A DNA stretch of 64,000 nt, from assembly GCA_018702955.1 (NCBI GenBank), contig JABJEK010000098.1, positions 1 through 64,000 of the forward strand. The letters run 5' to 3'. The first letter of the stretch is position 1, and each line of letters starts with the position of its first letter. Shown in pieces: positions 36,756 to 44,360 of this stretch. The notes below the pieces were generated by a model. The model made no database searches, was not told where the DNA came from, and saw nothing but the letters and a program-made list of their open reading frames with translations. This DNA comes from Rhodospirillaceae bacterium (GTDB lineage: Bacteria; Pseudomonadota; Alphaproteobacteria; UBA6615). The translations under genes and the position numbers were made by a program.

Positions 36756-37459
36756 ACAATCTGCAACCCACTATTCTGATCGTCGAGGACGAGCCGCCGC
36801 TCGTCGAACTCATCTCCTACAATCTGGAGAAGGCCGGCTTCCAGGCAAAGATCGCGCGTGACGGCGACGAGGCCATGCTCGCGGTCGAAGAACACAAGCC
36901 CGACCTGGTGCTGCTCGACTGGATGCTGCCCTATGTGTCGGGCATCGAGATTTGCCGCCGCATCCGGCGCAACCCCGACACCCGCGACCTGCCGATCATC
37001 ATCCTGACCGCGCGCGGCGAGGAAGACGACCGCATCCGCGGGCTCGACGCCGGGGCCGACGATTATGTTGTCAAACCCTTCTCGCCCAGCGAGCTCGTGG
37101 CGCGGGTCAAGGCCGTCCTGCGCCGCACCCGGCCGGCCTTCGACAAGGATCAGCTGACCTATGGCGACATCGCCATGGACCTGACGACCCACCGGGTCAG
37201 CCGCGCCGAGGCGCCGGTGGATCTGGGTCCGACCGAGTTTCGCCTCCTGCGTTTCCTGATGGAGCATCCCGGCCGCGTCTTCTCGCGCGAACAGTTGCTC
37301 GATTCGGTCTGGGGCCATGACGTCTATATCGAGCCGCGCACGGTCGATGTGCATATCCGGCGCCTGCGCAAGGCGATGAACCTGCCCGGCACGGACGACC
37401 TGATCCGGACGGTCCGGTCCGCAGGCTACGCCCTGGATATCAAGGACGAGTACGCCTAG
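36752..37459 (+). CDS. phoB: Phosphate regulon response regulator PhoB
   Basis: OmpR-family regulator of 235 residues. The receiver domain has acidic E12/D13, phospho-acceptor D56 (LVLLDWMLP) and the VVKPFSPSELVARV lysine. The C-terminal winged helix shows FRLLRFLMEHPGRVFSREQL and YIEPRTVDVHIRRLRKAM. It starts with GTG 36752 overlapping the phoU stop (GTGA), and its stop shares the palindrome CTAG with that of the convergent ald gene. It would bind the Pho box upstream of pstS. Confidence 0.96.
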   Translation: MNNLQPTILIVEDEPPLVELISYNLEKAGFQAKIARDGDEAMLAVEEHKPDLVLLDWMLPYVSGIEICRRIRRNPDTRDLPIIILTARGEEDDRIRGLDAGADDYVVKPFSPSELVARVKAVLRRTRPAFDKDQLTYGDIAMDLTTHRVSRAEAPVDLGPTEFRLLRFLMEHPGRVFSREQLLDSVWGHDVYIEPRTVDVHIRRLRKAMNLPGTDDLIRTVRSAGYALDIKDEYA

Positions 37460-42484: not shown

Positions 42485-43180
42485 ATGATTTCAGCATTCT
42501 TCAAGGCGCTCGGAGATCTCGGAGACCCGCGCATGCGGTCGATTCTCTGGCAGACGGTCGGCCTCAGCATCATCACCGCCATGCTCCTGTGGGGCGGGCT
42601 GTCCTGGCTGTTGTCGAGCACCGAACTGATCGGCGACGTGCCCTTCGTTGGCGGATGGCTCGAGACTACGGTGGACTGGCTCGGTTCCGTTGCGGTGTTC
42701 GTCCTCGTGATCCTGCTGATGCCCGCCTTCCTTGGCCTGTATGCCAGTTTCTTCATCGAGGCTATCTGCCGGGCGGTCGAGGACCGGCACTATCCCCACC
42801 TTCAACCGCCGCGCAATCAATCGATCATGGAGGCCATCATTGTCGGCCTCAAATTCGGCGTGCTGCTGATCGTCTTTAACCTGTTGTTGCTGGTGTTCAT
42901 CTTCTTCCCGCCGATCTACGTCGTCGCCGGCTGGGCGGTGAACGGGCACTTGCTGGGCCGTGAATACCTGGAAATGGTCGGCTTTCGTCGCATGGACCCC
43001 CAACAATTGCGCGACTACCGGCTCAAAAAGCGCAGCCCCATCTTCATGTCCGGCCTGATGCTGGCGGTGATCGCCTCGATCCCGATCGTGAATTTGATCC
43101 TGCCCTTGTTCGGACCCGCCATGTTGTTGCACGTTTTCGAGGCAACCAGAGAATCTGAATCCACTAATATTGTTGTTTAA
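42485..43180 (+). CDS. EI24-domain (CysZ-like) membrane protein
   Basis: A 231-residue integral membrane protein with four to six hydrophobic segments (near 25-45, 65-90, 115-145, 200-220) and the EI24 family pattern, including YVVAGWAVNGHLLGREYLEMVGFRRM. E. coli CysZ of this fold imports sulfate, but no cys genes are near and the function of alphaproteobacterial members is not settled. It opens a run of envelope genes (bactofilin, microprotein, lipoprotein). Its stop codon lies inside a palindrome. Confidence 0.82.
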   Translation: MISAFFKALGDLGDPRMRSILWQTVGLSIITAMLLWGGLSWLLSSTELIGDVPFVGGWLETTVDWLGSVAVFVLVILLMPAFLGLYASFFIEAICRAVEDRHYPHLQPPRNQSIMEAIIVGLKFGVLLIVFNLLLLVFIFFPPIYVVAGWAVNGHLLGREYLEMVGFRRMDPQQLRDYRLKKRSPIFMSGLMLAVIASIPIVNLILPLFGPAMLLHVFEATRESESTNIVV

Positions 43181-43195
43181 CAATGTGTTAAACAA
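43173..43195. promoter_or_regulatory. AT-rich palindrome with TTAA-N7-TTAA (CtrA-like box)
   Basis: TTGTTTAACA-ATG-TGTTAAACAA is a 10-bp perfect inverted repeat with a 3-base centre. It contains TTAACAATGTGTTAA (43177..43191), an exact fit to the CtrA consensus TTAA-N7-TTAA. It lies about 125 bp before the bactofilin ATG and overlaps the EI24 stop. No T run follows, so it is not a classic terminator. GANTC sites occur at 43151, 43157, 43239, 43268 and 43288. Confidence 0.6.
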
Positions 43196-43317
43196 TATTG
43201 TGGACAATTTGCTCTAAACGCGCTATCCAAGCACCTGAGAGTCGATATATTCTCGGGTGTGGGTGTCGAATCCCGTGCCCGATTGGCGATTCTGGGGTCA
43301 AAACGGGGGGCGCAACC

Positions 43318-43928: not shown

Positions 43929-44360
43929 ATGACCCTTCGCGGCGCCTTCACGCTGGCCGCGCTGCTGGCACTCACCGCATGCTCCGGTGCATTCGTGCCC
44001 GCCCCCGCCGAGCGACAAACCACAACCACGCCGCCGCCAGCCCGCACGGCGCCGGCGATTGCCCGTACGGCCCCCGCGAACCGCACACCAGAAGCACCAA
44101 AACCCCGGATTTCCGACCTTATCGGCCAGGAAACGGCACAGATCGACGCTCAGATCGGCGCGCCCGACCTGATCCGCAGCGAAGGCGACGGCGAGCTCCG
44201 GATCTACCGCAACACGGCTTGCGTCGTGCATGTCTTCGCCTACCCGCGTGGCCCCGATGGCGCGGTCCGCCAGGCGACCCATATCGAAGCGCGCACGCCC
44301 GATGGCCAGATTGTCGGTGCGGACGCCGACGCGTGTCTGGCGCGTTTCACGAGAAGCTGA
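43929..44360 (+). CDS. Putative lipoprotein of unknown function
   Basis: A 143-residue protein with a lipoprotein signal: hydrophobic LAALLALTAC with lipobox L-T-A-C and lipidation Cys 18. A Pro/Thr/Ala-rich linker (about 23-60) leads to a small C-terminal domain (about 62-143) that begins ISDLIGQETAQIDAQIGAPD and contains RIYRNTACVVHVFAYP. That layout resembles small outer-membrane-associated lipoproteins, but I do not recognise a named family. It is 4 bp downstream of the microprotein and converges on nth. Confidence 0.75.
   Translation: MTLRGAFTLAALLALTACSGAFVPAPAERQTTTTPPPARTAPAIARTAPANRTPEAPKPRISDLIGQETAQIDAQIGAPDLIRSEGDGELRIYRNTACVVHVFAYPRGPDGAVRQATHIEARTPDGQIVGADADACLARFTRS

Follow-up and report, generated by a model that had tools for sequence, protein, structure and literature searches.

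Is the DNA between an EI24/CysZ-like gene and a bactofilin gene of a Rhodospirillaceae bacterium wired into a Caulobacter-type cell-cycle circuit, or is it an ordinary promoter that happens to carry the letters of one? The window is the whole 64,000-nt stretch of contig JABJEK010000098.1 (forward strand) from assembly GCA_018702955.1, whose genome is G000 below. An earlier note on this DNA described an exact TTAA-N7-TTAA site inside a 10-bp perfect palindrome, five GANTC sites and a downstream bactofilin gene. All of these are where it placed them: the palindrome arms are 100% complementary, the GANTC starts (43151, 43157, 43239, 43268 and 43288) are correct, and the downstream product has a bactofilin polymerisation domain (PF04519) above cut-off. 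What the note made of them, a cell-cycle-timed envelope module under CtrA and CcrM/GcrA, fares less well. We think it quite likely that an operon for bactofilin, a small membrane protein and a lipoprotein has its ordinary promoter and leader here, and that the CtrA-like site is accidental in a genome with no intact CtrA; an epigenetic mark on this ordinary promoter, in a lineage losing CtrA and flagella, is plausible.

Table. Features of the region around the bactofilin promoter (window positions).
Feature	Position	Strand	Remarks
EI24/CysZ-like membrane protein gene	42485..43180	+	PF07264 E=1.8e-25; upstream gene orthologous in relatives
Inverted repeat	43173..43195		arms 43173-43182 and 43186-43195, 10 bp, 3-bp spacer
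Exact TTAA-N7-TTAA	43177..43191		TTAACAATGTGTTAA
Predicted sigma-70-type promoter, TGGACA-N17-TATCCA	43201..43229	+	spacing conserved in orthologues
Possible leader-RNA structure	43231..43296	+	a local hairpin (43231-43242/43249-43260) or, alternatively, a long stem
GAGTC	43239..43243		near predicted transcription start; GANTC kept in 8/12 orthologues, N changed in G004
GAATC	43268..43272		GANTC also in G006 and, with another N, in G002
GATTC in CGATTCT	43288..43292		fits YGAKTCK; kept in 5/6 genus members
Bactofilin gene, 165 aa	43318..43815	+	PF04519 E=3.9e-22, 78.8 bits (cut-off 27.9)
Conserved small predicted membrane protein, 42 aa	43796..43924	+	overlaps bactofilin 3' end; no Pfam family
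Conserved predicted lipoprotein (LTACSGA)	43929..44360	+	conserved in related loci

By search pattern, 11 of 12 orthologues, across two genera, share the 17-bp spacing of the predicted promoter, and the twelfth (L028) has a similar block. The promoter is retained in G002, G011, G020 and G021, all of which lack full-length ctrA. Its -10 hexamer is a weak match (3 of 6 positions), and a strict consensus promoter scan of the region, 43201-43229 included, returned no match. RNA polymerase would most likely use this element and start near 43236, and the AT-rich DNA directly 5' of it may serve as an UP-like element. A second promoter at TTGGCG (43283) was rejected, there being no -10 hexamer downstream of it.

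The 42-aa protein adjoins bactofilin in all 10 related loci searched by tblastn, with one weak match (E=0.27); the lipoprotein gene, for whose product a Pfam search found no family, probably belongs to the same operon. The arrangement recalls the BacA-LmdC bactofilin/M23 peptidase operons of Hyphomonas neptunium and Rhodospirillum rubrum (PMC10945521), with a polymerisation domain flanked by short tails and a bactofilin gene that overlaps its neighbour, but no M23 peptidase adjoins it here, the neighbours being EI24, the 42-aa membrane protein and the lipoprotein. A PhoB-type response regulator (over the cut-off of the NCBIfam PhoB model, and not CtrA) is encoded at 36773-37450, about 5.9 kb 5' of bactofilin.

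The origin of the CtrA-like site can be followed to a single base. TTAA-N7-TTAA occurs once in the window against 0.02 expected. The EI24 stop codon TAA occupies 43178-43180, and the first T of the site is the third position of the last EI24 sense codon; because the gene ends at 43180, it contains the first TTAA as well as GANTC 43151 and 43157, and that half of the CtrA-like site is therefore coding. The last EI24 codons are GTT TAA in G000 versus GTA TAA in the three closest relatives (G006, G004 and G002), and the single synonymous change from GTA to GTT produces the first TTAA and, with it, the palindrome's left arm. The exact site and the perfect palindrome are both missing from all 11 other orthologous promoters, those of the ctrA-intact G006, G004 and G022 included, and the fold energy of the palindrome is -11.8 kcal/mol in G000 versus -0.6 to -6.2 kcal/mol in relatives. 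Genome-wide there are 7 TTAA-N7-TTAA sites versus 14 for the reversed control pattern, i.e. no enrichment. These sequence comparisons suggest that the exact site and palindrome most likely arose by accident in this species alone, through one synonymous change in the EI24 gene.

The regulator itself appears to be lost. The sole ctrA of G000 is a 3' remnant running from codon 165 (G006 numbering) through the last ~74 codons at 96% identity; the first ~164 codons are gone, and nothing of the receiver domain is left. Directly 5' of it, and joined to it, is a fliX remnant with an internal stop (PF10768 E=3.8e-15), and 3' of it is a gene that we take to be chpT from its position and sequence (its short N-terminal piece has no Pfam match), with an in-frame TAA and an internal deletion. 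The three remnants stand side by side on contig C9 (L195:3310-4441; L048:1319-2452). A search for flhA found none in G000, a fragmented MAG that is 92.8% complete. Together, the remnants and the absent flhA suggest that flagella and the CtrA phosphorelay have been decaying: one deletion would have removed flagellar genes and most of ctrA, and chpT would then have decayed. In so fragmented a MAG, faulty or chimeric assembly could account for part of the ctrA break, though the independent lesions in chpT make this less likely. Most of the genus is without ctrA: the gene is full length in G004, G006 and G022, and no full-length copy is found in G001, G002, G003, G005, G011, G017, G020, G021 or G023. 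Among the 19 family genomes, flhA and a full-length or fragmentary CtrA-like match at 90% identity or more co-occur in G006, G022 and G016; in G004 ctrA is present and flhA was not detected.

If the CtrA-like site is accidental, the GANTC cluster might be so too. Its five sites in 142 bp make it the densest 142-bp cluster of the window, and the roughly tenfold enrichment claimed for it is, as a local density, about 14-fold over the window's one GANTC per ~390 bp. That figure weakens once the search is counted, since a scan over the 64 kb gives P(max>=5) of ~0.07 for a cluster found by looking, and a second cluster of 5 in 142 bp, at 43-44% GC, lies at L062:1288-1444, within 396 kb of G000 sequence. 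The background of ~63% GC assumed by the note holds for the window, but the stretch itself has 43%. Chance within an AT-rich stretch thus has an appreciable probability, if one short of even. Against it stands the persistence of the sites in the closest relatives, 4 of 5 in G006, 4 of 5 in G002 and 3 of 5 in G004, with a conserved-cluster P of ~0.035; the next genus shares a single GANTC position. When four sites are compared across G000, G006, G004 and G002, 14 of the 16 GA/TC columns show no variation, compared with 1 of 4 N columns and 98 of 157 background columns (Fisher P=0.036 for the fixed bases against background and 0.032 against N columns, in a small, post hoc test). Retention of GANTC as such would be expected to leave GA/TC fixed and N free in this way, and the sequence statistics for it are marginal (P ~0.03-0.07). 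Across the syntenic window, non-coding GANTC is just slightly, and not clearly, better kept than other pentamers. GANTC is depleted genome-wide, to 0.40 of dinucleotide expectation, which is the lowest value among 24 like pentamers; such depletion has been reported for bacteria with CcrM (PMC3973325).

Both proteins that would read these sites are encoded in G000. CcrM (368 aa) matches the NCBIfam CcrM model with E=1.4e-191 and 636 bits, below the Caulobacter-specific cut-off of 830; its gene adjoins mutY, and the protein is 97-99% identical in G002, G004 and G006. GcrA has a complete reading frame of 157 aa and a PF07750 match over cut-off (E=2.7e-35). Among family members ccrM and gcrA are each found in 17 of 19. 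Loss of ccrM was considered as a reason for the missing GANTC of G003 and G005. Neither has ccrM, but neither has its neighbour mutY; the two assemblies are incomplete, and even in these genomes GANTC remains depleted. Judging by the enzyme family, CcrM, being intact, probably methylates the GANTC sites, and with both genes whole a weak control of the bactofilin operon by CcrM/GcrA is plausible on sequence grounds.

The sites at 43239 and 43268 lie at about +4 and +33 of the predicted, unmapped start, and through the one or two nearest it GcrA may adjust promoter activity in step with replication, a suggestion that we make tentatively. Intact ccrM and gcrA and a conserved GANTC near a predicted sigma-70 start liken the locus to the CcrM-methylated, GcrA-activated promoters of Caulobacter crescentus (ctrA P1, ftsZ, mipZ). 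The GcrA regulon has been defined by the -40 to +40 span around the start (PMC7987155), and a conserved promoter GANTC is a published predictor of CcrM dependence (PMC3973325). Unlike at those promoters, the start-nearest site, AGAGTCG, fits YGAKTCK incompletely, and the start is a predicted one. A literature search for bactofilin together with GcrA returned just three co-mentions, in which one or both terms were incidental.

The same conservation might have a cause in RNA. GANTC 43239 and 43288 could be kept for pairing, as the two arms of a stem in the leader RNA by which stability or translation of the bactofilin mRNA is controlled, rather than for methylation: AGAGUCG (43238-43244) is complementary to CGAUUCU (43287-43293), and the alternative long stem pairs 43235-43243 with 43288-43296 around an inner stem of 43254-43263 and 43272-43281. 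The alifold energy of the leader lies ~3.5 SD below that of shuffled columns in both genera (z ~ -3.5), 89.8% of cells are paired versus 23-56% when slid, and in G022, where the GANTC is lost, a local hairpin (GAGAATT/AATTTTC) is still there. We nevertheless consider this explanation unlikely. Covariation of both structures is not above that of shuffles, the 5' arm pairs with different partners in the two genera, and an Rfam search of the leader found no family; moreover, GANTC sites are complementary to one another trivially, and the N base is variable, GACTC in G004 breaking one pair of the stem.

Somewhat less probable still is a stronger role for methylation, in which CcrM and GcrA, kept after the loss of CtrA, ChpT and flagella, still time the bactofilin operon via the conserved GANTC sites at its start. 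If that were true, one half of the Caulobacter cell-cycle circuit, the epigenetic one, would work alone on cell-shape genes, and should the GcrA/CcrM part prove right, these alphaproteobacteria would offer a natural test of the role of GcrA/CcrM once CtrA is gone.

Very improbable is a palindrome that serves as the operator of another dimeric regulator or as the EI24 transcription terminator, since its 10-bp perfect arms and stable predicted RNA hairpin in G000 would suit either role, but the symmetry is gone in every relative and no T-run terminator was found in the region.

Equally remote is a full Caulobacter-type circuit, in which CtrA binds TTAA-N7-TTAA while CcrM/GcrA read GANTC and bactofilin is timed by both. 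As at CtrA-controlled promoters, an exact site lies 5' of a gene, ~45-59 bp from the predicted start, and the motif is meaningful in the genus: in G006 the promoter of ctrA has the usual CtrA motifs, TTAACCAT and TTAA-N6-TTAA, which bears out the consensus there, yet the exact site is missing at the bactofilin gene of G006. Unlike at those promoters, the regulator is broken, with ctrA truncated beside a broken chpT; the site stems from one synonymous base, shows no genome-wide enrichment and is absent as an exact match from the ctrA-bearing relatives.

On the two points by which the earlier note proposed to be judged, absence of ctrA or ccrM and loss of the motifs in syntenic relatives, the outcome is divided: ccrM and gcrA are intact while ctrA is a 3' remnant between a fliX remnant and a damaged chpT, and the exact CtrA-like site and palindrome are absent from all 11 other orthologous promoters while the GANTC sites are partly kept. 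Because ctrA is truncated here and the exact site is absent even where ctrA is intact, the CtrA half of the proposed module is, from these sequences and to the extent that the assembly is reliable, refuted for this species; the CcrM/GcrA half is left as a modest possibility. An exact regulatory motif can thus be a one-base accident, and reading such a motif needs the state of its regulator. Elsewhere in G000, a near-canonical CtrA site, TTAACCATTTTTTAA, lies at L007:1501-1515, 5' of an unknown 324-aa ORF, and is possibly a leftover from a time of active CtrA.
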